From the NCBI RefSeq assembly GCF_017814975.1, contig NZ_JAGIQA010000033.1, positions 1 through 64,000 on the forward strand: DNA of 64,000 nucleotides, given 5' to 3'. This DNA is from Cupriavidus consociatus. GTDB taxonomy: Bacteria; Pseudomonadota; Gammaproteobacteria; Burkholderiales; Burkholderiaceae. The position numbers were made by a program, and so were the translations under genes. Under the pieces are notes generated by a model. That model was not told the DNA's origin and ran no database searches. It saw nothing but the letters and a program-made list of their open reading frames with translations. This document shows positions 353 through 45,656 of the stretch, in pieces. How positions within the stretch are numbered: the stretch's first letter is position 1; every line of letters begins with the position of its first letter.

Positions 353-1840
353 CTACCGTATACACCCAAGCAGTATCTCGAACGCGGGCCCGATCTCCTC
401 CTCAGGCACGCCGGCGTAGCCCAGCAGGAGCCCGCGTTGCACGCGCTTGCCAAGGAAATAGCGCGACAATGGCCTGACCAGGACGCCGAGGGAGCTGGCC
501 TTCTCGGCAATAGCAACATCATCCGCATCATCCGGCAGACACAGCACCAAGTGCAAGCCGGCGTTGCTACCGTACCGGTGCAATGCGTCCGCGCCTAGAT
601 ATCGCACTATCAGGGCCGCGAGGATCGCGCGGCGGCGGCCATACAGCAGACGCATCCGGCGGATATGGGCAGCATAGTCGCCCGCCTGCATGAACTCTGC
701 TACGGTGGCTTGCGTCATCAGGTGGCCGGCGCGGTACAGCTCGGAATGCGCTGTCTGGAAGGAATGGGCCAGAGCACCTGGCAATACCATGTAGCCCATG
801 CGCAGGCCTGGAAACAGCGTCTTGCTGAACGTACCGATGTAGATCACCGGTGCATCCGTCTGCATGCCCTGCAATGACGGGATCGGTTGCCCGGAAAACC
901 GGAACTCGCTGTCATAGTCGTCTTCGACAATCCAGCTGCCGTGGCTGCGGGCGTACTCAAGCAGGGCCCTCCGCCGGTTCAGGCTCATCACGGCACCGAG
1001 CGGGTACTGGTGCGACGGCGTCACGAAAATAAACTTAGGTGCCGGACATGGCCCGCCGGGGCGCTCGGCGGGGATCGTCAGTCCTTCCTCGTCGACCGGC
1101 ACCGGCACCATGTGAATGCCGCTCATCTGCAGCAGGCCGCGAATTCCCCAATAGCTGGGCTCCTCCACCCATGCCTGTTCGCCAGGCATTCCCAGCAACC
1201 TGACCACCAGGTCGATGGCCTGATGTATGCCCTCGGTGATCAATACCTGCGTGGCATCGCATTGCACGGAGCGCGCCACGCGCAAATGCGCGACCACGGC
1301 CTCGCGCAACGCCGGAAGGCCTCCGCCATGGCAATAGCTGAGCCACGCGGGGGCCGGATTGCGCCACAGGCGGGCCGCAATCTGGGCATAGCGCTGGCGC
1401 GGGAAGCGCGTCACGTCCGGCACGCCGGGCATGAAAGCACCCCACTGCGACGGTGATGCCGATGCGTTCGCCAGCAATTCGGCACCGCGCGGCGACAGGC
1501 CCGGCATCGCCTGCGCCCGCGCGCTCTTTGCCTCGGCTGCCTTGGCGTTGAGATAGGCCTCCGGCGCGGTGGCGGCGACAAAGGTACCGCTGCCGGTGCG
1601 GGCGTGGACATAACCCTCGGCCAGCAACTGCTCATACGCAAACATCACCGTATTGCGCGATAGCCCCAACTCGGCCGCAAGGTCACGGGATGGCGGCAGG
1701 CGGGTCTGCGGCGACAGCGTGCCATCGAGGATGGCCGCGCGGATGCACTCATAAAGACTGCGGTTAATTGGCCTCGCCAGCCCTGCCGGGCCCGCCGGCC
1801 CCAGGCGTTGAAGCAGCAAGTCTCCACAAATGGATCTCAA
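353..1840 (-). CDS. MocR/GabR-type transcriptional regulator
   Basis: Fusion of an N-terminal GntR-type winged helix (about residues 25-90, with PSRDLAAELGLSRNTV) to a class I aminotransferase-like domain that binds PLP. The Schiff-base lysine lies in GTFSKTLFPGLRMGY. Length of about 495 aa is normal for MocR proteins. It is transcribed divergently from gabT-gabD, the arrangement seen for GabR, so it probably senses GABA through PLP and activates those genes; that role is inferred from position. The start is uncertain: the outermost in-frame start is a TTG at 1840 with no clear ribosome binding site, and an internal TTG at 1819 is possible. Confidence 0.88.
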   Translation of the reverse strand: MRSICGDLLLQRLGPAGPAGLARPINRSLYECIRAAILDGTLSPQTRLPPSRDLAAELGLSRNTVMFAYEQLLAEGYVHARTGSGTFVAATAPEAYLNAKAAEAKSARAQAMPGLSPRGAELLANASASPSQWGAFMPGVPDVTRFPRQRYAQIAARLWRNPAPAWLSYCHGGGLPALREAVVAHLRVARSVQCDATQVLITEGIHQAIDLVVRLLGMPGEQAWVEEPSYWGIRGLLQMSGIHMVPVPVDEEGLTIPAERPGGPCPAPKFIFVTPSHQYPLGAVMSLNRRRALLEYARSHGSWIVEDDYDSEFRFSGQPIPSLQGMQTDAPVIYIGTFSKTLFPGLRMGYMVLPGALAHSFQTAHSELYRAGHLMTQATVAEFMQAGDYAAHIRRMRLLYGRRRAILAALIVRYLGADALHRYGSNAGLHLVLCLPDDADDVAIAEKASSLGVLVRPLSRYFLGKRVQRGLLLGYAGVPEEEIGPAFEILLGCIR

Positions 1841-1886: not shown

Positions 1887-1986
1887 AGCGCGATGAAATG
1901 CACCTCGCCGTCGCGTTCGGGCAGCGCGGTGTACCAATCCGGCGGGCATGCCAGCCGGGCCCATACAAGAATCACGGAGAGAGCAC

Positions 1987-3261
1987 TTGAAGAACCTCGA
2001 ACTGAACCAGCGCCGCGCCCTTGCCACGCCGCGCGGCGTCGCTGTGATGTGCGACTTCTATGCAGAGCGCGCCGAGAACGCCACGCTCTGGGACGTGGAA
2101 GGCCGCGAATACATTGACTTTGCCTGCGGCATTGCCGTGCTTAACACCGGCCACCGCCATCCGCGCGTGATACAGGCGGTGGCTGCGCAGCTCCAGCGCT
2201 TCACGCACACGGCCTACCAGATCGTGCCATACGAGAGCTACGTCATCCTTGCCGAGCGCATCAATGCGCTGGCGCCCATCGACGGCCTGAAGAAAACCGC
2301 GCTGTTTACCACCGGTGCCGAGGCCGTCGAGAACGCCATCAAGATCGCCCGCGCACATACCGGGCGCGCTGGCGTGATTGCCTTCTCCGGCGCTTTCCAT
2401 GGCCGCACCCTCCTCGGCATGGCGCTGACCGGCAAGGTCGCGCCGTACAAGGTCGGCTTTGGCCCCTTCCCTGCGGACGTGTATCACGCTCCGTTTCCGT
2501 GCGAACTGCACGGCGTGAGTGCCGATCAGGCGATGCAGGCGCTGGAGTCCCTGTTCAAGACGGACGTGGACCCGCAGCGGGTGGCCGCCATCATCATCGA
2601 GCCCATCCAGGGCGAAGGCGGCTTCCACCCGGCGCCGGCAGGCTTTATGCAAAGGCTGCGCTCGCTGTGCGATCGGCATGGCATCCTGCTGATCGCCGAC
2701 GAAGTGCAGACCGGATTCGCCCGCACCGGCAGGCTGTTTGCCATGTCGCACTACGCCGTGCAGCCCGATCTCCTCACCATGGCCAAGAGCCTCGCCGGCG
2801 GCATGCCGCTCTCGGCGGTGTGCGGGCGTGCCGAGGTCATGGATGCAGCGCTGCCGGGCGGGCTGGGCGGCACCTACGCGGGCAACCCGCTGGCGGTAGC
2901 GGCAGCACACGCGGTGATCGATGTAATCGAAGAAGAGCGGCTGTGCGAGCGCGCCACCGAGCTGGGCAATCAGCTGAAGTCAGTGCTGGATCAGGCGGCC
3001 GAAAACTGCCCGGCAATCGCCGACATCCGCGGCACCGGATCGATGATCGCGGTGGAGTTCCAGGATCCCGAAACCGGCGAGCCGAGCGCGGAGATCGCCA
3101 AACGGGTGCAGCAGCGCGCCCTTGCCGCCGGGCTGATCCTGCTGACCTGTGGCACGTATGGCAACACGATCCGCTTCCTCTACCCGCTAACCATCCCGCA
3201 AGCCCAGTTCGATGCGGCGCTCGCGGTGCTGACCCAGGTGCTGGATGGCCTGACCGACTGA
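1987..3261 (+). CDS. gabT: 4-aminobutyrate aminotransferase (GABA transaminase)
   Basis: PLP-dependent class III aminotransferase that moves the amino group of GABA to 2-oxoglutarate, giving succinate semialdehyde and glutamate. Hallmarks are RGV near the N-terminus, WDVEGREYIDFACGIAVLNTGH, the PLP-phosphate site TTGAEAVENAIKIAR, the DEVQTGFARTG block and the catalytic lysine in MAKSLAGGMPLS. I chose the TTG at 1987: it follows GGAGAGA at good spacing and gives the N-terminus (KNLELNQRRALATPRGV) that aligns with E. coli GabT. An upstream in-frame ATG at 1948 adds 13 residues. The product is about 424 aa. It is followed 10 bp later by gabD, forming a two-gene operon. Confidence 0.93.
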   Translation: MKNLELNQRRALATPRGVAVMCDFYAERAENATLWDVEGREYIDFACGIAVLNTGHRHPRVIQAVAAQLQRFTHTAYQIVPYESYVILAERINALAPIDGLKKTALFTTGAEAVENAIKIARAHTGRAGVIAFSGAFHGRTLLGMALTGKVAPYKVGFGPFPADVYHAPFPCELHGVSADQAMQALESLFKTDVDPQRVAAIIIEPIQGEGGFHPAPAGFMQRLRSLCDRHGILLIADEVQTGFARTGRLFAMSHYAVQPDLLTMAKSLAGGMPLSAVCGRAEVMDAALPGGLGGTYAGNPLAVAAAHAVIDVIEEERLCERATELGNQLKSVLDQAAENCPAIADIRGTGSMIAVEFQDPETGEPSAEIAKRVQQRALAAGLILLTCGTYGNTIRFLYPLTIPQAQFDAALAVLTQVLDGLTD

Positions 3262-3271: not shown

Positions 3272-4723
3272 ATGCGATTCCAACACCCCCCGCTGCTGCG
3301 CAATGCCTGCCTGATCGACGGCGAATGGACACAAGCCGCGAACGGTGCCGTGCTGTCCGTACATAACCCCGCCACGCAAGAGGTCATCGGCACCGTGCCC
3401 GCCTGCGGCGCTGCCGAGACCGAGCAGGCCGTGGCAGCCGCGGAACGTGCCCTGCCGTCCTGGCGCGACCTGACCGGCAAGGCGCGCGCCGCGGTGCTGC
3501 GCCGCTGGGCCGACCTGGTGCTGGCCCACCAGGAGGACCTGGCGCAGTTGATGACCGCAGAGCAAGGCAAGCCGCTGGCTGAAGCGCGCGGCGAAGTCGC
3601 CTACGCGGCGTCCTTCCTCGAATGGTTCGGCGAAGAGGCCAAGCGCGTCGACGGCGATGTGCTGTCGAGCCCGCGCCCCAGCCAGAAGCTGCTCGTGCTG
3701 CGCCAGCCGGTCGGCGTCTGCGCCGCGATCACGCCCTGGAACTTTCCGGCGGCGATGATCACCCGCAAGGCCGGTCCGGCGCTGGCGGCGGGATGCACGA
3801 TGATCGTGAAACCGGCCGAGCAGACGCCGCTGACCGCGCTGGCGCTGGCCGCACTGGCCGAGCAAGCCGGCGTGCCGCACGGTGTCTTGCAGGTGGTCAC
3901 CGGCGATCCGATCGAGATCGGCAACGTGCTGTGTGCAAGCCCGGTGGTGCGCAAGCTGAGTTTCACCGGCTCGACCGCCATCGGCAAGCTGCTGATGGCG
4001 CAATGCGCCGGCACGGTCAAGAAGCTGTCGCTGGAGCTCGGCGGCAACGCACCGCTGATCGTGTTTGAAGACGCCGACCTCGACCGCGCGGTCGACGGCA
4101 TCATGGCGTCCAAGTTCCGCAACAGCGGCCAGACCTGCGTATGCGCCAATCGCATCTATGTCCATGATGCTGTCTATGACGAGGTTGCGAGCCGGCTGGT
4201 GCAGGCCGTTGGCGCGTTGAAGGCGGGCCATGGCATCGACAGCGGGGTCACGCAAGGCCCCCTGATCGATGGCGAAGCCGTCGCCAAGGTGGAAAGCCAT
4301 ATTGCCGATGCGCTCCTGCATGGCGCACGCGTACTGACCGGTGGCCGCCGCCATGCGCTTGGCGGCACCTTCTTCGAGCCCACGGTGCTGGCCCACGCCA
4401 CCGCTGCCATGCGTGTCGCGCGCGAGGAAACCTTCGGCCCGCTTGCCCCGCTGTTCCACTTCAGGGACGAGCAAGACGTCATTGCCATGGCCAATGACAC
4501 CGAATCCGGCCTCGCCGCGTACTTTTTTTCCAGGAACATCGGCAAGGTATGGCGCGTGGCCGAGGCGCTGGAATACGGCATGGTCGGCATCAATACCGGG
4601 CTGATCTCGAACGAGGTGGCGCCGTTCGGCGGCGTCAAGCAATCCGGGCTCGGGCGCGAAGGGTCGCGGTATGGCATCGACGAGTACCTCGAAATGAAAT
4701 ACCTCTGCCTGGACCTGGACTGA
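3272..4723 (+). CDS. gabD: Succinate-semialdehyde dehydrogenase
   Basis: Aldehyde dehydrogenase of 483 aa that oxidises succinate semialdehyde to succinate and feeds the TCA cycle. It shows the NAD(P)-binding ITPWNFPAAMITRK, the GSTAIGK loop, the general-base glutamate in LELGGNAPLIVFEDAD and the nucleophilic cysteine in NSGQTCVCANRIYV. The second cysteine two residues on is the redox-switch pair known in E. coli GabD. It lies 10 bp after gabT, so the two complete the GABA shunt. NADP preference is expected from the family but not shown here. Confidence 0.93.
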   Translation: MRFQHPPLLRNACLIDGEWTQAANGAVLSVHNPATQEVIGTVPACGAAETEQAVAAAERALPSWRDLTGKARAAVLRRWADLVLAHQEDLAQLMTAEQGKPLAEARGEVAYAASFLEWFGEEAKRVDGDVLSSPRPSQKLLVLRQPVGVCAAITPWNFPAAMITRKAGPALAAGCTMIVKPAEQTPLTALALAALAEQAGVPHGVLQVVTGDPIEIGNVLCASPVVRKLSFTGSTAIGKLLMAQCAGTVKKLSLELGGNAPLIVFEDADLDRAVDGIMASKFRNSGQTCVCANRIYVHDAVYDEVASRLVQAVGALKAGHGIDSGVTQGPLIDGEAVAKVESHIADALLHGARVLTGGRRHALGGTFFEPTVLAHATAAMRVAREETFGPLAPLFHFRDEQDVIAMANDTESGLAAYFFSRNIGKVWRVAEALEYGMVGINTGLISNEVAPFGGVKQSGLGREGSRYGIDEYLEMKYLCLDLD

Positions 4724-32571: not shown

Positions 32572-32738
32572 TCGCCGTGCATGAGCCACCGGCTGATGCC
32601 GCCGATCCAAACTGCGAATGCGCGTGATCGCGGGCTCGTCGGCCCGATGCATACACGCGTTCGCGCTCATCCCGCAGGCCCGGCGCAGGCCCGCTGTTCA
32701 GACCCGTCGTTTCAGGTCATTTCCACAGGGTATTTCTC

Positions 32739-33980: not shown

Positions 33981-34052
33981 AAGCCTGGATCAGGATCCGG
34001 GAATGCCGCGTTGCCACTATGGTGATAAGGCACTCCTTCTAGCACTACTGCA

Positions 34053-34176
34053 GTTCAAATAAGCATTGTCGTCCTGGCGAAGGCGGCAACCGAGTGACTT
34101 ATCCCGAAGGGACGTGAAAGACGCTGAATTCCCGCCTTCGCTGGAATGACGGACGCTGTTCAAATCATATTTGAAC
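34053..34176. repeat. MITE-like inverted-repeat element
   Basis: The segment is bounded by GTTCAAAT (34053-34060) and ATTTGAAC (34169-34176). The right end is itself a palindrome (GTTCAAAT CAT ATTTGAAC, 34158-34176). Inside, GCGAAGGCGG (34077-34086) pairs perfectly with CCGCCTTCGC (34132-34141). It lies in a non-coding gap between phaZ and the next cluster and is less GC-rich than its surroundings. It looks like a miniature mobile or REP-type element. Only one copy is seen here. Confidence 0.55.
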
Positions 34177-34217
34177 GGCATTATCCATATAGCACTGCCT
34201 GTTGTCGGGCACAAAGC

Positions 34218-34247
34218 AGAAGGACGGAGGCGAGGCTCCGTCCTTCT
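34218..34247 (-). terminator. Strong hairpin ending the minus-strand binding-protein/symporter cluster
   Basis: AGAAGGACGGAG and CTCCGTCCTTCT form a perfect 12-bp stem with a 6-nt loop, 20 bp past the stop of the binding-protein gene. On the minus strand it is followed by GCTTTGT, a modest U-tract. Confidence 0.75.
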
Positions 34248-34266
34248 GTCACGGTTGTTCACCAGG

Positions 34267-35199
34267 CTATTCCGCCCGTTCCGGCATGGCGCGAATCAAC
34301 TCCTCGAGCTGCGCGCTCATGGGCAAGCCGAGCCGCTCGCCAGTGGGCAGCTTCATCACGAACCACTGCCTATACAGGCGTTCCAACTCGCGCGACGCCG
34401 CCAGCTCACGCAATGTCCTCTCCACCACAGCTGCGAACTGCGGATCACCTTTGCGATACATGATCCCGTACGGATCGTAGGAGAGAAAATCGGAGGTCAC
34501 CCTGAACTTGCCGCGCTCCGGACTGCCGCTGAGCAGGCCATGCAGCAGTACGTCGTCTCCCGCATAGGCATCCGCGCCACCCTGCTGCAAGACCCGGAAT
34601 GCGTCGGCATGCTCGCGCGCCCGGATGATCTTCAGTTGCAGGTCGAAGCGCTCGGACAGCCGTTCCAGCGCCGCCACGTTCGTGGTGCCGCCAGTGGCCA
34701 CGACGTGTTTCCCTTTCAGGTCGCGCAATGTATTGATCGGCGAGTTCCTCGGCACCATCAGCTTGGTCCCGGCAACAAAGATCACGGGGGAGAATGCCAC
34801 ACGTTGCATGCGCTCTGCATTACGCGTCGTCGAGCCGCATTCCAGGTCGACCTTGCCCGACGTGACGGCGTCAAAGCGGGTCTCGGAGGTCACCGGCAGC
34901 CATTGGATACTCACCTCGCGGCCCACCTCGGCGGCCGCGGCCTCCACGATGGCACGGCAGATATCGATGGAGTATCCGATGGGGTTGCCGGACCTGCCGA
35001 GATAGGAGAACGGCAAGGACGATTCCCGGTAGCCGATCGTCAGGCTGCCGCCTTCCTTTGCCTTCTTCAGCGCGCCGGAGAGTTCCCCCGGCTGCTGTGC
35101 GGACGCCTGGGCGGCGGAGAGCATCGCGCACAACGCCATCAGGGCGCAGTTCACGGCATAGCGACGCAGGCTATGCAGGGGGGATGGATTCAAGAGCAT
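34267..35199 (-). CDS. Amino-acid ABC-transporter periplasmic binding protein (GltI-like)
   Basis: 310 aa with a signal peptide (about 1-35, ending ASAQQ) and the family-3 solute-binding fold: LTIGYRESSLPFSYLG, GYSIDICRAIVEA, DLECGSTTRNAERMQRVAFS. The closest type is the glutamate/aspartate binding protein GltI. No ABC permease or ATPase gene is next to it, so it is an orphan that must borrow a transporter or act as a sensor. It is the last gene of the minus-strand cluster, 56 bp after the symporter. GAGGAGG precedes its start. Confidence 0.85.
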   Translation of the reverse strand: MLLNPSPLHSLRRYAVNCALMALCAMLSAAQASAQQPGELSGALKKAKEGGSLTIGYRESSLPFSYLGRSGNPIGYSIDICRAIVEAAAAEVGREVSIQWLPVTSETRFDAVTSGKVDLECGSTTRNAERMQRVAFSPVIFVAGTKLMVPRNSPINTLRDLKGKHVVATGGTTNVAALERLSERFDLQLKIIRAREHADAFRVLQQGGADAYAGDDVLLHGLLSGSPERGKFRVTSDFLSYDPYGIMYRKGDPQFAAVVERTLRELAASRELERLYRQWFVMKLPTGERLGLPMSAQLEELIRAMPERAE

Positions 35200-35255
35200 T
35201 GGCCCTCCTCATTGATCATTCGCGCAATGACAGCATAGTCCCTGCGGGCGCCCGG

Positions 35256-36569
35256 TCATACCCGGGCGGTGCCTGAATTTCCGAGTTGGACGCCGGCTTG
35301 CGGCGCGCGGCTCGGGCCATCGTGCTCCAGGTCGGATTCCGGTGCGAGCTGCCCTTCCCATTTCGCCACGACCGCAGCGGCGATCGAATTGCCTACGGCA
35401 TTGGTCGCCGAGCGTCCCATGTCGAGGAACTGGTCCACGCCCATGATCAGCAGCAGCCCCGCTTCAGGAATGCCAAACTGGTTCAGCGTCGCGGCAATCA
35501 CCACCAGCGAGGCGCGCGGAACGCCTGCCATGCCCTTGGAGGTCAGCATCAGCAGCAGCAACATGGTGATCTGGGTGCTGACCGGCAGATGGATGTCATA
35601 AGCTTGCGCAATGAACAGCACGGCAAACGTGCAGTACATCATGGTGCCATCGAGGTTGAACGAATAGCCCATCGGCAGCACGAAGCTGGAAATCTTCCTG
35701 CCGACGCCGAACCGGTCCAGGGCGTCGAGCATCTTGGGATAGGCGGCCTCCGAACTCGCCGTGGAGAACGAAAGCAGGAAGGGCTCGCGGATCAGCCGGA
35801 TCAGCGTGAATACCCGCTTGCCAAGGAAGAACATCCCGGCCAGCACCAGCAGCCCCCACAGCACTGCGAGGCCAAGGTAGAAGCTGCCCATGAACTTGGC
35901 GAAGGTCAGCAGGATGCCCAGCCCCTGCGTGGTGACGGTGGAGGCGATGGCCGCAAACACCGCGAGGGGCGCCATCCACATCACCGCGCCGGTGATCTTG
36001 AGCATCGTCTGCGCCAGGTCATCGATCACGCCAGCCAGCCGCCTCCCGGTTTCACCGAGGGTCGAAAGCGCAGTGCCAAAGAAGATCGAGAACACGACGA
36101 TCTGCAGGATTTCATTGGTTGCCATCGCCTCGGCCACGGATTTCGGCACCAAGTGCGTGATGAAATCCTTGAGCGTAAAGGCATTGGTCTTCAGATTGGT
36201 GGCGGCTCCCACCTCCGGCAGCGGCAGGCCGATATTGACGCCTGGCTGCAGCACCGACGCCAGGATCAGCCCGAGGGAGAGCGAGATGAACGAGGCCACG
36301 ATGAACCAGCCGAGCGCCTTGACGCCGACACGTCCCACCGTGCTTGCATCGCCCATGTGAGCAATGCCTACCACCAGCGTGGAGAACACCAGCGGCGCAA
36401 TGATCATCTTGATCAGCCGCAGGAAGACATCGGTAAAGATCGAGATATAGCCTGCGATCTGCTTCGCGGTCGCGGGATCCGGGAACGCGCGGTGGCAGCT
36501 GTAACCGACGATGACACCGAGGATCATCGCAATGATGATGTAGGTGGTGATTGGACGTTTTTTCTTCAT
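35256..36569 (-). CDS. Dicarboxylate/amino acid:cation symporter (DAACS family)
   Basis: 437-aa carrier with the same architecture as the product encoded at 9321 and many identical blocks, including [37 protein letters not shown] and the C-terminal DQFLDMGRSATNAVGNSIAAAVVAKWEG. The two are clear paralogues. An ideal AAGGAGGAG ribosome site precedes ATG 36569. Lying in the decarboxylase/ATP-grasp cluster, it probably imports the acidic amino acid or dicarboxylate used there, though the substrate is unknown. Confidence 0.88.
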   Translation of the reverse strand: MKKKRPITTYIIIAMILGVIVGYSCHRAFPDPATAKQIAGYISIFTDVFLRLIKMIIAPLVFSTLVVGIAHMGDASTVGRVGVKALGWFIVASFISLSLGLILASVLQPGVNIGLPLPEVGAATNLKTNAFTLKDFITHLVPKSVAEAMATNEILQIVVFSIFFGTALSTLGETGRRLAGVIDDLAQTMLKITGAVMWMAPLAVFAAIASTVTTQGLGILLTFAKFMGSFYLGLAVLWGLLVLAGMFFLGKRVFTLIRLIREPFLLSFSTASSEAAYPKMLDALDRFGVGRKISSFVLPMGYSFNLDGTMMYCTFAVLFIAQAYDIHLPVSTQITMLLLLMLTSKGMAGVPRASLVVIAATLNQFGIPEAGLLLIMGVDQFLDMGRSATNAVGNSIAAAVVAKWEGQLAPESDLEHDGPSRAPQAGVQLGNSGTARV

Positions 36570-36801
36570 GGCTCCTCCTTGGAGTCTCTCTCCAGCCTGC
36601 TATCCGAAGCAGTCATTTCGGAATTTCAGGCGATATCCCCCCGGGGCGCGATCCGAATGGCATCGCACCCTGTTACCGGCGGGCGTGACAGAAAAAATGC
36701 GGCTGGGGCAAGCGGGCTGGCGATGCCCTGCTGCCTTGCGCTTCAACGGAATTCGATCTGCTTGTCGATTTGCTTTTTGTTCGCGGCTACCGCATCAGTC
36801 C

Positions 36802-37866
36802 CTACTGGAAACTGCCTACGTCATCAAGTACCCAGCGGCGCGCCGGCACCGCGGTGTACGGCAGCGCGGAACTCTCCACATCGAACTCGATCATCCTGGC
36901 GCCCGGCACGAAGTGGCTGCACGACTGTCGCCAGGTGGCATCCGGCCATACCATTTCGACCGACCCGTCGCAGGGATGATAGACGGCGCTATACAAAGTG
37001 CCATGTCCGCGCCCGTAAGCGGTCTGGAACAGCGGCGGCCGCAACAGTGCGTGCAGCACTGCCCTGGAGTCATCCGCCTGCCGCACCGCCGCGGCCAGCG
37101 CCTCCTCCCGGACCTCCGCCAGCGTTGCCTTCGCATGCGCAGGCCATTCGACCCCGTGCTGCAGGTTGCTCACTGCCTGCTTGCGCACCACTTCCACCGG
37201 CCGGTCCGGCGTGACGAACACGGTTGCCCACTGTGCGCTGCGGTCAAGCAGGCTCACGGTATAGCTCATATGGACAGGGATGCGCGATAGCATTCCCACC
37301 GCGGCGTCGACGTCCTCCGCAAACTCCAGCACATAGCGCAGCACCAGCGGAATGCCGAATCCATGGCCAACTGTCTTGCGGCCTCCAAACGACAGCGATG
37401 CGGCAAGGCCGCTCTCGTTGATGCCGTCCAGCGCGCCCCACAGGCAATCGCCAACCGCCACCACCCGCCGGCCGTGCCATCGTGACGCAAGCCAGACGCC
37501 CTCCAGCAAGGCCGGAGCGAAGTCGTAGTTGCGCAGCAGCGCCGGCGTCGCGCCCGCTACGTGGTTGCCTGGCAGTGGCAGCCACACCGCCTGGGAACAA
37601 CCGGCGATATAAGGCGGCGGCCCCCACATCGACAGGAAGCGCGCCTCCAGGTCGCCGCCGCCGGCGAGATCGACCAACCGCTCCCAGGTCGGCACCAGTT
37701 CCGGCATATGATCGCGCAGGGCCCGGCGACACATCAGGAAGCCGGGCCGCGCGCGCTCGCCATCGCGCAGATACCATTGCCGGTATCCGGGCCAGAACTG
37801 CCGGAAGATGTTCTGCCATCGCTGCCCGGGCAAGTCCTCGCTGATTGCTTCGAAAGTACAACGCAT
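36802..37866 (-). CDS. C45-type (acyl-CoA:6-APA acyltransferase-like) Ntn hydrolase
   Basis: 354 aa. The motif YIAGCSQAVWLP places the N-terminal nucleophile at Cys90, so the precursor should self-cleave between Gly89 and Cys90, as in isopenicillin N acyltransferase. RNYDFAP about 25 residues on and NESGLAASLSFGG are the expected Ntn-fold signatures. Members hydrolyse or form amide bonds. No signal peptide. It starts 26 bp after the ATP-grasp gene, an obvious operon pair, so one enzyme may make an amide that the other cleaves or transfers. Substrate unknown. Confidence 0.82.
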   Translation of the reverse strand: MRCTFEAISEDLPGQRWQNIFRQFWPGYRQWYLRDGERARPGFLMCRRALRDHMPELVPTWERLVDLAGGGDLEARFLSMWGPPPYIAGCSQAVWLPLPGNHVAGATPALLRNYDFAPALLEGVWLASRWHGRRVVAVGDCLWGALDGINESGLAASLSFGGRKTVGHGFGIPLVLRYVLEFAEDVDAAVGMLSRIPVHMSYTVSLLDRSAQWATVFVTPDRPVEVVRKQAVSNLQHGVEWPAHAKATLAEVREEALAAAVRQADDSRAVLHALLRPPLFQTAYGRGHGTLYSAVYHPCDGSVEMVWPDATWRQSCSHFVPGARMIEFDVESSALPYTAVPARRWVLDDVGSFQ

Positions 37867-37892
37867 GTCGTCTTGCCCTCGCGTGACTGGAC

Positions 37893-39347
37893 TTACAGGA
37901 TCTTGAATGCACCGGGCTGCGGCGCCAGTTCCGCTTGGGCGGACACCAGCGGCTTGGCCCCATAGTATTGCTTGATGCCGCGGATCCAGTGGTGGGCGCG
38001 CTCGTTGAGCCTGAACTCATCATTCATCGAGCGACCTCGCGTAATCAGGATGCCGAGATCGGCACCTTCATAACGATAGTCGCCCGGCCCGGTGATACGC
38101 AGGAAGAACGCTTCCCTTTCCGTCTCGATCTCGCGCCGATTGGAATCGAAACGATGGTAGGACACCGATCCGTCGGCAGCCATGCGATAGATGCCCGAGG
38201 GCGGCGCGTGGGTCACCACATCGACGTTGTCCTCGGTGTACTTGATCACGAGCTGCGACCAGCCGTCGATAAATGACTTCTCGGCCCAGCGCTCATTGAG
38301 TTCGCGCACGTTCAGGTCGAACGGCACGCCCGAGAATTCAAGCAGGTGGAACAGGAACAGCGGTGCGTCCGCATAGGCAAAGGCAGCATGATTGGTCATC
38401 GGGCTGGCGCCGCAGATACGGGGATTGAGCTCGCCGAGATAGACTTCCCCGGTATCCACATCGATCAGGAAATCCAGGTCGAAGTAGCCGCGATATCCTT
38501 CCTCCAGCAACTGGTTGCCGAAGCGGAAAGCCATGTCGCGCGCCTTCATCCTGACCTCTTCCGAGAACGCGCCGGGGAAGATCTCATTGCCGCACCACCC
38601 GCCCTTGTACGGCGTCAGCTCGCGCGCGCCCACGATCTCGGTCAGCAGCGGACCTACCAGGGTGCCGGACTGGGTCGCACAGGCTTCCAGCGTGGCGCCG
38701 CGGCAGTTGATGCGCTTCATGATCTTCACTTCCGGGTCATTGACGATGTCATCCTTATGCTGGTTGAAATCGTCTTCGCTGGAAATAAAGAACGTGGTAT
38801 GGCCGGAATCCCCGAACGCGCTTTGCACCACAAGATCCCTGCCAAGCCCGTGGCGCTCAGCGATCTGCATCAGGTGCTGGTAGCTGTCGACCTTCTCCAG
38901 TGCATTGGGCACGGAATGGACTCCAGCCTTGTTGCCGATACGGACGGTCTCCATCTTGTTGTCGCAGCGGCTGCGCAGCGCCGCAGGCGGGAACCAGACG
39001 TCGAGCCCCAGTTCGTCGGCAAGCTCCTCGGTCCTCTCGTCAAACATCAGGAAGGTGGCGGCGGGATGTCCTCCTCGCTGCTCGATCATGTCGACCACAT
39101 CCTTATGCTGGAGCAGGTAATTGTTGATGTCTTCGATCGATGTGAACTCTTCGTGGGGACGTTCCGGCGGCACAAACACATTGGGATGGCGCCCATCGAA
39201 GCAATCGATGTAGTTCACATACTTGAAGCGGTTCACCCACTGATCGATGCCCAGGAGATTGAAGTTGGTGGCGCTGATAAAGTAGATCGGCTTTTCGTTC
39301 CGATGGAACAACACGCGGAGATCTGAGACGTTACGGACTTTCTGCAT
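37893..39347 (-). CDS. ATP-grasp ligase of unknown substrate
   Basis: 484 aa. The central and C-terminal parts are an ATP-grasp fold: VVQSAFGDSGHTTFF near 173-187, MKRINCRG near 210-217, TEIVGARE near 236-243, and the metal site YLGELNPRICGASPMTNH with Glu306, Asn308 and Arg310. These enzymes activate a carboxylate as acyl phosphate and join it to an amine. The N-terminal 120 residues match no domain I know. Databases may call such proteins biotin carboxylase, but no biotin-carrier partner is present. Start 39347 is chosen for CAGGAGAAA; the frame is open upstream to 39440. Confidence 0.78.
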   Translation of the reverse strand: MQKVRNVSDLRVLFHRNEKPIYFISATNFNLLGIDQWVNRFKYVNYIDCFDGRHPNVFVPPERPHEEFTSIEDINNYLLQHKDVVDMIEQRGGHPAATFLMFDERTEELADELGLDVWFPPAALRSRCDNKMETVRIGNKAGVHSVPNALEKVDSYQHLMQIAERHGLGRDLVVQSAFGDSGHTTFFISSEDDFNQHKDDIVNDPEVKIMKRINCRGATLEACATQSGTLVGPLLTEIVGARELTPYKGGWCGNEIFPGAFSEEVRMKARDMAFRFGNQLLEEGYRGYFDLDFLIDVDTGEVYLGELNPRICGASPMTNHAAFAYADAPLFLFHLLEFSGVPFDLNVRELNERWAEKSFIDGWSQLVIKYTEDNVDVVTHAPPSGIYRMAADGSVSYHRFDSNRREIETEREAFFLRITGPGDYRYEGADLGILITRGRSMNDEFRLNERAHHWIRGIKQYYGAKPLVSAQAELAPQPGAFKIL

Positions 39348-39487
39348 CGCGGCTTTCTCCTGAGGAATTTCTTGCCGTCGTGGCGCGGGTATCCCGCGGC
39401 CCCTGGCGGTCCAGGTCCGGCATAGTTTTCTTGTTGACACGGGCTCTGCGGCGGGAAGCCGGCCGTCATGGCCAGCTTCATGCCCGA

Positions 39488-42421
39488 CTATTTTTTTTGC
39501 ACAGGGCGTTCCGCAGCGCGTTCCGTCGTTCGTTCCGCCGCGCGTTCCATATGCCCTGCCGCGACCTCATCGACGATTGCCGTCGATATCTCCACCACTG
39601 TCGACACCGACGCCTTGGCCGCCGCCGCGACGGCCGCCGCGGCCTCACCGGCGGCCTGCAGCGCCAGTTGCTGGAGCGCGCCTTCACTGAACACACGGAA
39701 GCCGAGTTCGGGGCGGTAGCCATGAATTTCGCGCACGTCCAGGGCCTGCATGAATTCCAGGATCTCCGAGCTGATCACCTGGCCCGGCACCAGGATCGGG
39801 AAGCCGGGCGGATACGGAATCACGAACAGCGCCGACACCACCTCACGTCCCCTGGCAATGGCTTTCGCCACCTCGGCCATGGTGAGGTATTCGCAGTTCT
39901 CCTCGTCATAGGACATGAAGAAGGCCTTGCGGATATCACCATCCGGTGTTTCGATTTGCCCGCTGTTGCAGACGCTACGAAAGGCAAAGTGAAAGTGAGA
40001 AAAGTCAGGCAGCGGCGGCAATTCCCGCGTCAGCGATGCCACCCGCTTCTCGTGCAGGCGGCGCTCGATCACGCTCATGTCGGCGGTTCGTTCGTCTAGC
40101 TCCCTGGCGATCTTGATCAGCACTTCGATCAGGTAAGCAACGGAGGAGCGCGTGGTACCGATATTGGTCATGAACAGGACCGTGTTGCGGGACGTCTTGT
40201 TGATCTGGATCCCGTACTTGTCCATCAGGTACTTGTTCTTGAACGTGTCGCCGTCAATGCCGGAGCAGCCGATCGACAAGGTCAACCGGGTCGGATCCAG
40301 CGCGAACTCGTCGACGCGCCACGCGGCCTCCATATTCGCCCAACCGGACTCGGGGCTGTAATACGCGTCGATCCCCGAGGGACGATAGTCAGTCGGTACC
40401 ACGCGTGACACATTGAGGAAATGGAAGTACTTCTTCAGCAGCGGATGGGTGTGGATCCATTCACGCAAGGTCATGGCCAGCTCCATCTGCCGCTGCACCA
40501 GTTCATACCCTTCCAGTTCCACTTGCCGCCGTCCGACATCGAGCGATGCCAGGATCTGGTAGTTCGGCGACGTGGAGGTGTGCGTCATGTAGGCTTCGTG
40601 GAACGCCTCTTCCGCCTTGTCCTTGAAGTCCTGGTCCCACACGTGGATCATCGAGCCCTGCCGCAGCGAGGTCAGGGTCTTGTGCGTGGACTGGGTCGCA
40701 TAGACGCGCACCCGTGCCCGGTCCGGGTTCGGCATCAGGCGCGTGGCGACGAGTTTCTCCTCGTCATCCCAGTCAGCGCCGCGGAACGATGTGGCGAAGG
40801 CCTCGTATCGCCGCCGATAGTCGTCACTGTCGAGTTCGCGGCGCAAGCGCGATGCAGCATCCATGCCGGTGCGCTGGCGATAGGTCGGGTGAAAGCGGGC
40901 GAAGGCAAACCATGCCTCGTCCCACAGGAAGATCAGGTCTGGCTTGATGGCCAGGCACTCCTCCATCACGCGCTTCACGTCATAGACGACGCCATCGAAC
41001 GTGCAGTTGGTCAACAGCACCATCTTGACCTTGTCCAGCGTGCCGGCCTGCCTGAAGCGCAGCAGGGTGCGCTTCATCTGGGCGATCGGCACGGCGCCGT
41101 ACATCGAGAAGTCGTTCAGCGGATAAGAGTCAAGATAGGCCACTTTTGCGCCCGCCAGCACCATGCCGTAGTGATGCGACTTGTGGCAGTTGCGGTCCAC
41201 CATGACGATATCGCCGGGCTTTACCAACGCCTGCACCACGATCTTGTTTGCGGTCGAGGTGCCGTTGGTGGCGAAGAAAGTGCGGCGAGCCCCGAATGCA
41301 CGTGCTGCATACTCCTGCGCAACCTTGATGGGGCCGATGGGATCAAGCAGCGAATCCAGCCCTCCCGAGGTGGCCGACGTCTCCGCCATGAACAGGTTCA
41401 GGCCATAGAACTGCGCCATGTCCTGGATCCAGTGCGAATTCATGATCGACTTCCCGCGCGCCAGCGGCAGGGCATGGAATACGCCGGTTGGCTGCTTGGA
41501 GTATTCCTTCAGCGCCGTGAAGAACGGGGTCTTGTATCGCTCCGACACCCCCTTCATGATTGACATGTACAGCTCGGTGTGGTCTTCCTCCCGGAAGAAG
41601 ATCCGGTTGAAGACTTCGCCGACGCGCGAGGCGATTTCCTCGGCCTTAACATCAGTCACCAGGTACAGGTCGAGCTCGGGTCGCAGTTCTGCGATCTTTT
41701 GTCCGAGCAATGGCCCTCGCTCGGACTCCGGCTGCTGTTCGATGCCTTCGTCCAGCCCGTCCAGGAACTTGCGCAACAGGTCCAGTTCATACTCCGACTT
41801 GAACGGGAACCCGTGCCGTATCACGCATGCCTGCAGGTTGAAGTTGAAAAGCGTGGCGATCAGGGCATCCTCGAAGCTCGGCACCACCACGACATCCCAG
41901 ACGAAGGGGTCATCCACGCGCTGCTTGCGCTGGACGCGCCTGCGCAGGGCCTCTTCATCCTCGCGTGACATGTCGTCGACGATCAGCACCTCAAAATATG
42001 GGCGCGTGATCTGGGCCTGCATCTCTTCTTCCGTCTCGATCTCGGACGGCTCCTCGGATTCGGCCTCGAGCGACAGTTTCTTGTGGCGATAGGTATCGCT
42101 GGCAAGCATGCGATTGATGCGATGCACTGCAATATTGAGCCGGTGCAGGTCTCCACTGGCGAACCAGGCGGTCAGTTCCTCGAACAGACGGTAGCCCGGA
42201 AACGCCCAGAACCGCTCGATCGGCTCAAGCATTGACAGGGTTTCGGTGACACGAGCGTGGCGCTCGACGAACTCATTGCATTCGCGTCCGAGATTGACCA
42301 GCCGACCCAGATCGTCGGTCAGGTTCATCCAGCCATCCGCGCGCATCTCCCAGACACTGCGATAGCGGTTCAGGGAAACGTTTTGCCCGGTTTTCGCTTT
42401 TCTTGCGGTGCTGCGTGTCAT
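39488..42421 (-). CDS. Very large Orn/Lys/Arg-type PLP decarboxylase
   Basis: 977 aa, about 220 longer than biodegradative arginine or lysine decarboxylases. Residues 1-140 form a helical extension ending in an acidic stretch (ESEEPSEIETEEE). Residues 141-260 are the response-regulator-like wing domain, and 290-800 the fold-type I PLP core with the Schiff-base Lys581 in YATQSTHKTLTSLRQGS and the DEAWFAFARFHPTYR block. The usual C-terminal domain follows, then an Ala-rich tail and ERAAERTTERAAERPVQKK. GGAGGAATAAC fits start 42421. It probably decarboxylates a basic amino acid or a derivative; which one is open. Confidence 0.85.
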   Translation of the reverse strand: MTRSTARKAKTGQNVSLNRYRSVWEMRADGWMNLTDDLGRLVNLGRECNEFVERHARVTETLSMLEPIERFWAFPGYRLFEELTAWFASGDLHRLNIAVHRINRMLASDTYRHKKLSLEAESEEPSEIETEEEMQAQITRPYFEVLIVDDMSREDEEALRRRVQRKQRVDDPFVWDVVVVPSFEDALIATLFNFNLQACVIRHGFPFKSEYELDLLRKFLDGLDEGIEQQPESERGPLLGQKIAELRPELDLYLVTDVKAEEIASRVGEVFNRIFFREEDHTELYMSIMKGVSERYKTPFFTALKEYSKQPTGVFHALPLARGKSIMNSHWIQDMAQFYGLNLFMAETSATSGGLDSLLDPIGPIKVAQEYAARAFGARRTFFATNGTSTANKIVVQALVKPGDIVMVDRNCHKSHHYGMVLAGAKVAYLDSYPLNDFSMYGAVPIAQMKRTLLRFRQAGTLDKVKMVLLTNCTFDGVVYDVKRVMEECLAIKPDLIFLWDEAWFAFARFHPTYRQRTGMDAASRLRRELDSDDYRRRYEAFATSFRGADWDDEEKLVATRLMPNPDRARVRVYATQSTHKTLTSLRQGSMIHVWDQDFKDKAEEAFHEAYMTHTSTSPNYQILASLDVGRRQVELEGYELVQRQMELAMTLREWIHTHPLLKKYFHFLNVSRVVPTDYRPSGIDAYYSPESGWANMEAAWRVDEFALDPTRLTLSIGCSGIDGDTFKNKYLMDKYGIQINKTSRNTVLFMTNIGTTRSSVAYLIEVLIKIARELDERTADMSVIERRLHEKRVASLTRELPPLPDFSHFHFAFRSVCNSGQIETPDGDIRKAFFMSYDEENCEYLTMAEVAKAIARGREVVSALFVIPYPPGFPILVPGQVISSEILEFMQALDVREIHGYRPELGFRVFSEGALQQLALQAAGEAAAAVAAAAKASVSTVVEISTAIVDEVAAGHMERAAERTTERAAERPVQKK

Positions 42422-42687
42422 GTTATTCCTCCGCCAGCGAGATATTCTCAATACCCGGATGCGCGCGTGCGAACCCGAATTTGAGTCTTAGCTGCTTAAT
42501 CGATGGTTGTGATCTTGTTTTGCGCTTGTCGTGCATTTTCCATGGGCCATGATTAAAGGATCCCATAACAAAGCCGACGACAAGCGTCTCCCTGGGACAG
42601 CGCATGCGTTCCCATCCGATAATCGTCTCCAATGCGATCGCGCCAGTTCAGCCGGGGAGCATGAGGCCGATCCGGGGTACCGCGAAG

Positions 42688-43584
42688 TTACTCCCCGGCA
42701 GGACCGCTCACTTGCGGCTGTGCGTTTTCGCTGACTCCTGGCTTGACCAGTTTCCCCAAGGTATGCAGATATGCGTCGGCACCGCTGCCGCGCTGATAGA
42801 CGGGAAACTCCACTTCCCGGTCACGGAAACTCTTGAGCGGCTGGCCAAGGCCGCGCAAGCCACGTTCGCGCTCGCGCCGCACCTTCTCAAAATCGATCTC
42901 CACCGGAATGATCTCCGCGGCACCCGACGAAGCCTCATGCAGCACATAACCGGAAGGATCGACCACAATGGAGCGCCCCACGCCGCCATCTCCGACACCA
43001 TTGATGTCAAAGAAATAAACCTGGTTGGTTGCCGCCGACGCGCGCACGATCGACAACTCGATATCGCGATCGATCGTATCCGTCATGGTCGGGTGCAGAA
43101 TCACCTCGGCGCCCATGGCTGCAAGCGTTCTGGTCGTCTCCGGGAACCACATGTCGTAGCAGATTGAGATGCCGAAGCGGCCGGCGTCCGGTACGTCGAA
43201 CACCACGAACTCGTTGCCCGCGGCGATGCCTTGCTCGTAGGGGCGGAACGGAAACAGCTTGCGGAACCGCGCCACCACATTGCCGGCGGGATCGATGACG
43301 GGCGCGGTGTTATAGATCGCGCCGTCGCGGCGCTCGAACAGCGAGCCTGGTATCAGCCACAAGCCATGCCTGGCCGCCATCTCGCACAACCGGACCTCCT
43401 CGGCGCCCGGCATTTCCACCGCCTTGGCCGGGCTCGGACCAAAGGCGGCGAGTTCCGAGAACATCACCATATCGACCCAGGGAAAACGGTGCCTGACATG
43501 CGCCAGGTAGCGATTCATTTGCGTGATGTTCTCATCGAATGCCGAAACCGGCATTTGAATACCTGCTACTGCAAAACGCTTCAT
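42688..43584 (-). CDS. Carbon-nitrogen hydrolase (nitrilase superfamily)
   Basis: 298 aa with the catalytic triad of the family: Glu44 in MFSELAAFG, Lys109 in RFRKLFPFRPYE and Cys142 in ISICYDMWFPETTR. Enzymes of this group hydrolyse amides, N-carbamoyl groups or nitriles. The sequence resembles aliphatic amidase-like and N-carbamoylputrescine amidase-like branches, without a decisive match. It is the promoter-proximal gene of the minus-strand cluster, 266 bp ahead of the decarboxylase, and divergent from the MocR regulator. Its role is likely to trim an amide product or substrate of the pathway. Confidence 0.82.
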   Translation of the reverse strand: MKRFAVAGIQMPVSAFDENITQMNRYLAHVRHRFPWVDMVMFSELAAFGPSPAKAVEMPGAEEVRLCEMAARHGLWLIPGSLFERRDGAIYNTAPVIDPAGNVVARFRKLFPFRPYEQGIAAGNEFVVFDVPDAGRFGISICYDMWFPETTRTLAAMGAEVILHPTMTDTIDRDIELSIVRASAATNQVYFFDINGVGDGGVGRSIVVDPSGYVLHEASSGAAEIIPVEIDFEKVRRERERGLRGLGQPLKSFRDREVEFPVYQRGSGADAYLHTLGKLVKPGVSENAQPQVSGPAGE

Positions 43585-43811
43585 TTAATGCCTCACGAAA
43601 CACAAATCTTACCGCCCGGTATATCCGCAGCGCTGGCGGAGCACCGTCATAGTTCTCGGGAATTAATTAAGCGCCAGCCCGGTTGCGGCGCTCCCATCTC
43701 CATAAGCTAATGCCGACTGCCTGATTGAATTGCCGCATTGTTGAAATAGTTCTGTGGTAATGCAGCGACATGATGGGATCTACTCTACAAGCCAGTTGGC
43801 CCCACTGTATA

Positions 43812-43821
43812 GTACCGGTAC
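43812..43821. promoter_or_regulatory. GTACCGGTAC palindrome in the nitrilase-MocR divergent region
   Basis: A perfect 10-bp palindrome sits right after TATAGT (43808-43813), a good -10 hexamer for the MocR gene, and 24 bp before its TTG start. A repressor or MocR protein bound there would cover the start of transcription. A GGTAC half-site also occurs in the gabR-gabT region near 1866. Confidence 0.4.
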
Positions 43822-43844
43822 AAATTTTCGGATGGAGCCAAGAA

Positions 43845-45356
43845 TTGAAAGAGACGCCATTGACCGATTGGCTTCTCGCGCGCAGTCATTGGAGCACCCC
43901 GGTGCGCTCGGGCGTGCCGCTGAACCGGCAGCTGTTTGATGATATCCGCGATGCGATCCTCGCCGGGCAGCTGTCGCCCGGCACCCGCTTGCCACCCACG
44001 CGGGAACTGGCACAGGACTTGGGCATTGCCCGCAATACAGTCCTCTATGCCTATGACCGCCTCACTGACGAGGGCTACACCCAGACGCACGGCGGCAGTG
44101 GCACGTATGTAGGCAATACGGCTCCCGACCCGGCCTTGCTGGCAAGCATGGCCGGCGTGGACCAGCAGCCGCCGTATCCCGGCGACGAATCACGCCTGTC
44201 GCAGCGCGCACGCGAGCTGCTTGCCCACGTCGGCGTATCGGACGTGCAGGCAGGTGCCTTCGTCCCCGGCATTCCGGACGTCAGCCAGTTCCCCCGCGGC
44301 GTATGGCAACGGCTGATCACCAAGGCCTGGAAGTTCGCCAGCCAGGAGCAACTGGGCTATGGCAGCCGACATGGCTTCCCGCCCCTCAAGCGCGCATTGA
44401 CGGAATATCTGGCGCTGGCGCGCGGTGTCGATTGCTCGCCCGAGCAGATCATCGTGACGCAAGGCAGCCACCAGGCCATCGACTTGTGCGCGCGCATGCT
44501 CGCCGACCACGGCGACCGGATCTGGGTTGAGGATCCCTGCTATTGGGGGGCGCGCAGCATCTTTCGCTCGGCCGGCCTGCAGATGGATAGCCTGCCGGTC
44601 GACGAGCAAGGCATCCAGCCGCCCGTCTCGCCGGGCGAACCACCGCGCCTGATCTTCGTCACGCCGTCACACCAGTATCCGAGCGGCGCGGTGATGAGCC
44701 TGGCGCGGCGCCGGCTGCTGACTGAGCTGGCGCATCGCCACGGCGCCTGGATCATCGAGGACGACTACGACAGCGAGTTCCGCTATCAGGGTGCTCCCTT
44801 GCCCTCGCTCCAGGGTCTGGATCCGCATCACAATACGATTTACGTAGGCAGCTTTTCTAAGGTTCTTTACCCCGGCTTGCGGCTCGGCTTCCTCATTGTT
44901 CCGCCAGGACTTGCCGATGCTTTTTCGGTGGCACAGTCTGAGCTGCATCGTGGCGGACAGCTTTTGATACAGGCTGCATTGGCGGAATTCATTGCGGATG
45001 GCCATTACGCGGCGCACGTACGCAAGATGCGCAAGATCTATGGCGAACGGCAGGCCCTGCTGACAAGCGAACTGCAGCACCAGCTTGGCGAGGAGATCGA
45101 TATCGTCGGAACGGATACAGGACTGCACCTGACCGTCAAGCTGCGGCACGCTCACGACCAGCTCGTATCGCGCTGCGCGCTTGCCCACGGTATCGTTGCC
45201 CGGCCGTTTTCGTCATATTTTGCTTCCCAGCAGAACTCCCAGAACGGCCTGGTTCTCGGCTACGGCGGCGTAAGCAACGAAGAGATTGCGTCGTCGGTTG
45301 CCAAGCTGGCGCATGCTATCCAACTGGTGCGCGAACCTGGCCGAGACATCTCATGA
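43845..45356 (+). CDS. MocR/GabR-type regulator of the decarboxylase/ATP-grasp cluster
   Basis: 503 aa: GntR winged helix (residues about 20-90, PTRELAQDLGIARNTVLYAYDRL) plus PLP-binding aminotransferase domain with the lysine in VGSFSKVLYPGLRLGF. A TTG at 43845 is the best start because GGAG lies 7 nt upstream; the frame is open to an ATG at 43770 with no ribosome site and overlapping promoter-like sequence. Divergent orientation implies that it controls the nitrilase-decarboxylase genes. A PLP-bound amino compound, perhaps the decarboxylase substrate or product, is the expected signal. Confidence 0.88.
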   Translation: MKETPLTDWLLARSHWSTPVRSGVPLNRQLFDDIRDAILAGQLSPGTRLPPTRELAQDLGIARNTVLYAYDRLTDEGYTQTHGGSGTYVGNTAPDPALLASMAGVDQQPPYPGDESRLSQRARELLAHVGVSDVQAGAFVPGIPDVSQFPRGVWQRLITKAWKFASQEQLGYGSRHGFPPLKRALTEYLALARGVDCSPEQIIVTQGSHQAIDLCARMLADHGDRIWVEDPCYWGARSIFRSAGLQMDSLPVDEQGIQPPVSPGEPPRLIFVTPSHQYPSGAVMSLARRRLLTELAHRHGAWIIEDDYDSEFRYQGAPLPSLQGLDPHHNTIYVGSFSKVLYPGLRLGFLIVPPGLADAFSVAQSELHRGGQLLIQAALAEFIADGHYAAHVRKMRKIYGERQALLTSELQHQLGEEIDIVGTDTGLHLTVKLRHAHDQLVSRCALAHGIVARPFSSYFASQQNSQNGLVLGYGGVSNEEIASSVAKLAHAIQLVREPGRDIS

Positions 45357-45656
45357 AAGGAAAGGGAACAATCTGGTCTTCAGGGCTGCTATAGCCCTGC
45401 ATCTTGACAACCTTCCCAACGTCCCTTTGTTGCTTTGCCCAAGCGCACATCGGATGTGGCAACGCACCGCGCTACCGCAGTTCGCACCCGTAGGAGAAAT
45501 CGCGGTAGGTTCGAGCCGGCACCGACGATGCCCACTGTCCTGATTGCCATCTCATACTTCCTTGCGTTGTATTAGGGATCTTTTAAATCTGATGCGGTGC
45601 GCTGACGGTATCGGCAAAGCGGCCGTGCACACCTGGCGCTGTTGGCCGTCACAAAA
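45357..45656. other. Non-coding spacer before the gene-fragment region
   Basis: About 300 bp with no reading frame that I can support on either strand and no clear repeat or transposase trace. It is somewhat less GC-rich than the flanks, as in intergenic or decayed DNA. Confidence 0.5.

Follow-up and report, generated by a model that had tools for sequence, protein, structure and literature searches.

The 64,000-nucleotide stretch of Cupriavidus consociatus DNA analyzed here (positions 1 to 64,000 of contig NZ_JAGIQA010000033.1; hereafter the window) carries seven open reading frames (ORFs) at 34267..45356, four of which appear to form a unit that makes gamma-aminobutyric acid (GABA), probably from glutamate, and attaches it to, or releases it from, a partner. 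The seven-ORF layout given in a preliminary description of this DNA was confirmed, as was the 26-bp gap between the genes designated here as ATPG and C45, and families were assigned using Pfam and NCBIfam models. Reading along the minus strand from a divergent plus-strand gene for a MocR-type regulator (43770..45356), the first gene is NIT (42688..43584; Pfam PF00795, E = 1.1e-32), a core gene for a nitrilase-superfamily (CN_hydrolase) amidohydrolase, followed by DEC (39488..42451; OKR_DC_1, PF01276, E = 9.1e-78), which encodes a giant pyridoxal phosphate (PLP)-dependent decarboxylase of the ornithine/lysine/arginine (OKR) fold that is likely to act on an acidic amino acid (glutamate). Next are ATPG (37893..39347, in an ORF open to 39440; NF005096), the ATP-grasp product of which is annotated as a "biotin carboxylase" and is a probable amide ligase, and C45 (36802..37866; NF040521, 149.7 bits against a cut-off of 85), which encodes an Ntn amidohydrolase/acyltransferase of the AAT/C45 type. 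Two accessory genes complete the series, one for a GltP/DctA-type SDF dicarboxylate/glutamate symporter (35256..36569; PF00375, E = 1.4e-115) and one for a GltI-like glutamate/aspartate binding protein (34267..35199; SBP_bac_3, PF00497, E = 2e-27). The most likely start of ATPG is the ATG at 39347, behind the Shine-Dalgarno-like AGGAGAAA; among 18 aligned relatives, 12 share this ATG, five start further upstream, and one starts later. The gap between DEC and ATPG is thus approximately 140 bp and not 47 bp. The listed start of DEC is a TTG, and its earliest ATG corresponds to residue 11 (~42421).

The conservation of the cassette was assessed in 80 loci, the top matches among 482 confirmed relatives (identities of 66-84%), which were found by scanning genome contigs with an ATPG alignment alone. 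C45 followed ATPG on the same strand in 79 of these loci, with a median tblastn gap of 40 bp, and since the loci were chosen by ATPG only, this pairing is not a matter of chance. The order NIT-DEC-ATPG-C45 was found in 27 of the 80 loci, short contigs included; the other arrangements were NIT-ATPG-C45 (11), NIT-ATPG-C45-DEC (11), DEC-ATPG-C45 with a reversed NIT (7), a reversed NIT with ATPG-C45 (7), ATPG-C45 only (10), and others (7). In the 53 loci that exceed 20 kb, referred to here as full-flank loci, a tblastn census, which overlooks genes cut off by the end of a contig, placed C45 in 53, NIT in 49, and DEC in 37. Joint retention of the decarboxylase, ATP-grasp, and C45 genes is, therefore, borne out across Pseudomonadota, and the inclusion of the nitrilase in the unit holds as well. 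The 80-locus set over-represents near kin because it comprises the best of the 482 relatives, and an evenly drawn sample of 398 genomes of the phylum is fairer: full-length ATPG was found in 11 of these, eight of which exceeded the family cut-off (G066, G132, and G104 were under it), and a giant DEC was present in all 11. C45 was also in the locus of all 11, adjoining ATPG in 10 and lying approximately 5 kb away on the opposite strand, beside NIT, in L133. NIT was present in nine of the 10 genomes with wider surroundings, a group that excludes G104, and was not seen in L134. Six further genomes of the 398 had a giant DEC at 45-48% without a full-length ATPG.

Full-length ATPG was detected in only five of 60 genomes of the genus, C. 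consociatus included, so the cassette is patchy in Cupriavidus, as would be expected if its genes were ordinary neighbors with no joint function. We regard this explanation as most improbable; it is already contradicted by the ATPG-C45 adjacency in 79 of the 80 loci and by the survival of the set in two distant genomes where ATPG is just 43-44% identical; both have C45 and DEC, and one has NIT. As the genes prove to be conserved together, the claim of a system stands.

Carriers are found in many Pseudomonadota, including Acinetobacter, Delftia, Variovorax, Accumulibacter, Cupriavidus, relatives of Paracoccus, and rhizobia. The ATPG of the window is 97% identical (tblastn) to a plasmid record of Cupriavidus oxalaticus and 93% identical to a Cupriavidus basilensis protein. 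One contig (L122) is titled Oceanobacillus (Bacillota), and its cassette groups among mostly alphaproteobacterial ones in the ATPG tree; the title probably reflects a mislabeled or contaminated assembly. Plasmid copies were also present in Rhizobium leguminosarum (L005 and L006); one of them lies close to nif/fix genes, with insertion elements. In eight plasmid records (H25-H32; one from Sinorhizobium meliloti and seven from S. medicae), just 37-44% of ATPG is matched, and, as judged from these partial matches, they probably hold decayed copies.

Regarding ATPG, the best family assignment was NF005096/PRK06524, "biotin carboxylase" (790 bits against a cut-off of 684), and no Pfam match was obtained at E 0.001. 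The GELNPR motif was present in 48 of 48 aligned rows. The AlphaFold2 model (predicted local distance difference test score, pLDDT, 87.9, with a poorly predicted loop at 316-322, pLDDT <50) has the biotin carboxylase-type ATP-grasp fold, and its fold matches were tied among biotin carboxylase, PurK, and PylC, at identities of 10-16%. Biotin carboxylases carry after NPR an IQVEH motif with a role in bicarbonate and biotin binding. This motif is absent from ATPG, which reads NPR[IV]xGxSxxTN where Rhizobium etli pyruvate carboxylase reads NPRIQVEH, and the identification of ATPG as a biotin carboxylase was rejected for this reason, though the fold is common to both. No biotin carrier or carboxyltransferase was found by Pfam among the seven cluster proteins; the rest of the genome was not searched for them. 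The top sequence and fold matches would also suit an N-carboxylase that depends on bicarbonate, as biotin carboxylase and PurK do, in place of an amide ligase; we consider this very improbable, in view of the invariant G-x-S-x-x-T-N (48 of 48) that replaces IQVEH, the tie with PylC in fold, and the two amidohydrolases that accompany ATPG.

The C45 protein has an AAT domain, a score above the model cut-off, the conserved cysteine, and the predicted fold of C45/AAT Ntn hydrolases; Cys90 and RNYD were conserved in at least 95% of 85 C45 ORFs of 300-420 aa. Isopenicillin N acyltransferase (PDB 2x1c, 2x1d, and 2x1e) is only 11% identical to it, and C45 lacks a penicillin context. In NIT, Glu44, Lys109, Glu117, and Cys142, which include the Glu-Lys-Cys set of CN_hydrolase proteins, were conserved in at least 95% of 64 ORFs of 260-380 aa, other lengths having been left out of both counts. 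NIT fell under the cut-offs of all 10 NCBIfam models that it matched and is not AguB or a formamidase by equivalog score (TIGR03381, 74.7 against 410; formamidase, 76 against 406). As far as alignments can indicate, the catalytic residues of DEC, C45, NIT, and ATPG look intact, and the earlier suggestion that an amide is made by the ligase and cut by C45 fits the predicted folds. A second C45 gene lies beside the cassette, on the opposite strand, in L117.

DEC shares the OKR_DC_1 domain and the STHK lysine motif with LdcI, AdiA, and SpeF, the PLP lysine being Lys591, and thus has the features of ornithine, lysine, and arginine decarboxylases up to this point. In LdcI, Glu526 is the probable lysine-binding residue, as postulated from docking and an older proposal in the available text of PMC5607190. 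Unlike LdcI, DEC has Asn751 at this position (alignment with 9e0m), and, thus, lacks the acidic residue of the basic decarboxylases. Asn751, Arg755, and Arg768 were present in all 63 cassette DECs (the ORFs had 700-1100 aa, and those of eight additional loci 880-1000 aa; partial DECs were excluded); at the Arg768 position, L145 has His, and both L151 and L152 have Gln. In another set, which shares some genes with the first, Asn751 and Arg755 were retained in 20 of 20 giant DEC rows; nine of these rows repeat genes of the cassette set, including the DEC of the window, and 11 are new (six standalone, three from Labrys, and two distant). The classical paralogues in the same set had Glu at the LdcI Glu526 position in 17 of 19 rows (15 of 17 distinct genes, two rows being second gene pieces) and Ser in two. 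These two, from L166 and L167, are of the OKR fold. DEC also scored far under the NCBIfam cut-offs for lysine, ornithine, and arginine decarboxylases, and its identity as a simple decarboxylase of one of these amino acids is disfavored by the Asn at the LdcI Glu526 position.

The layout in which a decarboxylase is accompanied by a dicarboxylic amino acid exchanger is that of decarboxylation-antiport cycles (AspT/AsdA). Standalone giant DECs (L145-L150) formed one clade apart from the cassette DECs in a quick tree search on 50 selected rows, the branches of which were long, and Asp-Al_Ex exchangers (PF06826) were near standalone DECs in six of six loci (by tblastn in five, and by Pfam in L177, L178, and L180); L180 also encodes an aspartate 4-decarboxylase over its cut-off (779.9 against 435). 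An acidic substrate of DEC is more likely than a basic one because of the Asn751/Arg755 pair and the exchanger context of the standalone DECs, and, judging from sequence comparisons, glutamate is the likelier substrate. The model in the preliminary description, with a basic amino acid as the compound decarboxylated, is not supported in this respect, given the Asn in 63 of 63 cassette DECs and a conserved context that points to glutamate and GABA. Most of the standalone DEC loci L177-L182 also hold ORFs for a permease (family F79) and for a protein resembling polyphosphate kinase (F204), both named by eye, and these loci possibly represent an acid-stress island.

The accessory genes of the 53 full-flank loci were gabT (26 loci), gabD (17), MocR (15), GltI (8), and GltP (5). 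Among the 37 loci with DEC (type 1), gabT or gabD was present in 22, a probed transporter (GltI, GltP, TAXI-TRAP, or DASS) in 17, and either in 26. An SDF symporter gene follows C45 in C. oxalaticus (L002), G022 (L135), L046, and L048-L051. The carrier and binding protein, which had been counted as parts of the system, are present in the window and are variable accessories among relatives (GltI 8/53 and GltP 5/53). The GltI-like protein had the glutamate/aspartate substrate-binding protein model NF008063 as its top NCBIfam match, at 204.9 bits under a cut-off of 375, and its gene has no adjoining permease genes.

A second block in the window carries gabT for a GABA transaminase (1948..3261, plus strand; NF005272, 761.9 bits against 725) and gabD for a succinate-semialdehyde dehydrogenase (3272..4723, plus strand; TIGR01780, 766 against 646), with a second MocR-type regulator gene divergent from gabT (353..1840, minus strand; PdxR model, 428 against 320), the product of which is 46% identical to the cassette MocR. 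With the cassette-type gabT of L054 as the query, this gabT is the sole match in the C. consociatus genome at E 1e-60. It lies 33 kb from the cassette; roughly half of the relatives have gabT near theirs. Components contiguous in many relatives, therefore, share one 64-kb stretch here. A type II asparaginase gene and the aspartate ammonia-lyase gene aspA follow gabT and gabD, and 353-9210 constitutes an acidic amino acid catabolic block.

A set of genes of an arginine-to-GABA type stands in place of DEC in eight of the 16 full-flank loci that lack it. These type 2 loci (Shinella, Labrys, Rhizobium, and relatives) encode, with not every gene in every locus, a match to the 5-guanidino-2-oxopentanoate decarboxylase model (739 bits against 500), an agmatinase-model ureohydrolase (214 against 174), a D-amino acid dehydrogenase (464 against 383), a racemase akin to ornithine racemase (404.6, short of the 480 cut-off), a permease, an aldehyde dehydrogenase, and RidA; as a pathway, the set would lead from arginine to GABA. 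The CATCH-N arginine network of rhizobia was considered and set aside as a different set, the main text of PMC7268258 containing neither "ATP-grasp" nor SMa0677 or SMa0680. In an ATPG tree of 86 rows (rows with ATPG <1250 bases matched, a locus <9000 bases, or a stop were dropped), type 2 formed one clade (100/100) within the DEC type. Loci without DEC also occur in Aquitalea, in some Acinetobacter, and in two lineages of Cupriavidus; at least three of the 15 rows scored as lacking DEC are unreliable, with L105 and L112 carrying a cut DEC and L067 being cut just upstream.

We infer the substrates, the order of reactions, and the regulation from these data and tentatively propose, at somewhat below even probability, that the locus is a glutamate-GABA catabolic and conjugation cassette; this reading draws on the loss in DEC of the Glu proposed to bind the distal amine, together with the gab and transporter context. 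DEC, an OKR-fold PLP enzyme, would produce GABA from glutamate (or from a closely similar acidic compound), ATPG would use ATP to form an amide that joins GABA (or glutamate via its carboxyl) to an amine or amino acid, and C45 would cleave this amide again. NIT may be another amidohydrolase, with a primary amide or carbamoyl relative of this omega-amino acid as its substrate. Once free, GABA would pass to succinate via GabT and GabD, GltI/GltP-type carriers would import acidic amino acids, and MocR, probably with an amine ligand on PLP, would control the gene set. In agreement with the preliminary description, no described pathway with this set was found in the literature searched, outside which subscription papers mostly fell.

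Several observations weigh against the glutamate-GABA proposal. gabT was not in range in 27 of the 53 full-flank loci, and 11 of the 37 DEC loci had neither gab genes nor a probed transporter. On the ATPG tree, DEC was lost approximately five times (counted by eye, with cut loci discounted), while ATPG, C45, and mostly NIT were kept, and of the 19 genomes that lack DEC at the locus, 16 had no cassette-like DEC elsewhere: a DEC at 70% was found elsewhere in three (Labrys), weaker matches (up to ~202 bits) in 10, and nothing at E 1e-20 in six. Since the trio persists without DEC, GABA production by DEC is not its sole purpose. In two gammaproteobacterial loci (L126 and L127), the cassette lies inside an ectoine-degradation operon, with ectoine genes (DoeA, DoeB, and Lrp) on one side and a succinate-semialdehyde dehydrogenase-like gene and an aminotransferase gene on the other (the DoeA, DoeB, and EhuR models exceeded their cut-offs in L127), which the proposal does not explain. 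Rv2531c of Mycobacterium tuberculosis shares the Asn with DEC, but Ile and Trp take the places of the two Arg. Where close DEC homologues, among the best 120 listed, have a specific public name, it is that of an arginine or ornithine decarboxylase and was presumably transferred on the basis of the fold. There is no obvious reason for the ATP expense of the proposed cycle. The C. consociatus genome has no canonical glutamate decarboxylase over the TIGR01788 cut-off, a model that was also not among the NCBIfam matches of DEC at E 0.001; this absence is weak evidence because the control genomes mostly lack the enzyme too (over the cut-off in two of 20 chosen DEC-carrying genomes versus three of 14 controls), and it was dropped as a marker for want of power.

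The polyamine form of the model in the preliminary description survives as an alternative, not as the best reading. ATPG would attach glutamate to the omega-amino group of ornithine, of lysine, or of a diamine; DEC (or a module of racemase, dehydrogenase, and thiamine diphosphate enzyme) would remove the alpha-carboxyl while the protected end is unable to cyclize, dehydrogenases would oxidize the aldehyde, and C45 would release GABA or 5-aminovalerate and glutamate. This appears unlikely to us: standalone DECs without a full-length ATPG share the Asn/Arg pair and lie near Asp-Al_Ex exchangers, NIT-DEC-ATPG-C45 occurs in A. baylyi (L055) and A. soli (L047) with no member of the probed families (gab and aldehyde dehydrogenase) within range, and no amine oxidase was noticed among the neighbors run against Pfam and NCBIfam, in which no search was aimed at one. 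The same standalone DECs, and the persistence of ATPG and C45 without DEC, also speak against an order in which conjugation comes first, ATPG making a gamma-glutamyl amide that DEC would convert to a GABA amide and from which C45 would release or pass on GABA. In many loci, DEC, ATPG, and C45 keep one order and are separated by short gaps (27 of 80 as NIT-DEC-ATPG-C45), which would suit this scheme, and the Asn and Arg of DEC could bind an amide-bearing side chain; we nevertheless hold it to be quite unlikely. The assembly of the butirosin side chain by BtrJ and BtrK is a precedent for such an order, for which our literature search found no paper.

Among described systems, the Puu (gamma-glutamylputrescine) pathway resembles the cassette in having a ligase, an amide hydrolase, and a GABA transaminase, and some loci have a PuuR-like regulator architecture. 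PuuA is a glutamine-synthetase-like ligase and PuuD a hydrolase of the class I glutamine amidotransferase type, whereas the cassette has an ATP-grasp ligase, a C45 hydrolase, and an extra decarboxylase and nitrilase; no PuuA-type glutamine synthetase or PuuD-type amidotransferase was found by Pfam among the cluster proteins. In the insect black-ebony-tan cycle, an acidic amino acid decarboxylase and an amide-forming ligase are combined with Tan, which cleaves a beta-alanyl amide, and the ligase Ebony is nonribosomal peptide synthetase-like, unlike the ATP-grasp enzyme of the bacterial cassette. Insect Tan carries the Pfam03417 domain (PMC10194958, available text), as does C45. By analogy, and with no claim of common descent, this set of decarboxylase, ligase, and Pfam03417 hydrolase may be the nearest analogue in logic. 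It is doubtful, though conceivable, that the cassette is its full bacterial counterpart, in which an OKR-fold glutamate (or aspartate) decarboxylase, an ATP-grasp ligase, and C45 would maintain a reversible pool of omega-aminoacyl amides under MocR, with the giant decarboxylases forming an acidic branch of a fold that, to our knowledge, is known only for basic substrates.

The cassette MocR combines a GntR winged helix-turn-helix domain with an aminotransferase I/II domain (Aminotran_1_2), as is typical of the family, and passed the PdxR model (429.9 against 320); it is not GabR by model (NF052285, 294.2, cut-off 600). No operator repeats were found in 43560-43800, and two aligned Cupriavidus intergenic stretches had only short blocks in common. 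Consensus matches in 33900-45600 resembling promoters (six, against 3.1 with a standard deviation of 1.7 in shuffles) and terminators (nine, against 7.3 with a standard deviation of 2.6) were not used. Adjoining GltI at 29258-33980 are genes for a sensor kinase and a response regulator, named by eye, and a polyhydroxybutyrate depolymerase (Pfam), which are also neighbors in C. oxalaticus (L002) and G022 (L135). The region at 45649-47469 is apparently degenerate; as read by eye, a minus-strand ORF that ends like a fragment of the NAD(P) transhydrogenase beta subunit is overlapped by a plus-strand kinase/receiver/cyclase-like ORF. A LysR regulator (Pfam) and a 2-hydroxymuconic semialdehyde dehydrogenase (873 bits against 693) at 47743-50329 probably mark the start of a meta-cleavage pathway.

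Taken together, a conserved system with an amide cycle is probable, and glutamate and GABA are more likely to be its substrates than a basic amino acid or polyamine. The giant decarboxylases of the Rv2531c type (PDB 9n0n, 9n0o, and 9n0p) include the closest solved structure to DEC (843 bits over residues 37-947), with the same Asn, whereas Ile and Trp stand where the cassette DECs have Arg755 and Arg768. As the activity of Rv2531c was not clarified in the available text of PMC12910592, the present results provide a testable substrate proposal for a large decarboxylase family. They also suggest that a protein publicly named biotin carboxylase is an amide ligase with a dedicated hydrolase, and, if the proposal is true, many Pseudomonadota would run an undescribed glutamate-GABA conjugation step.

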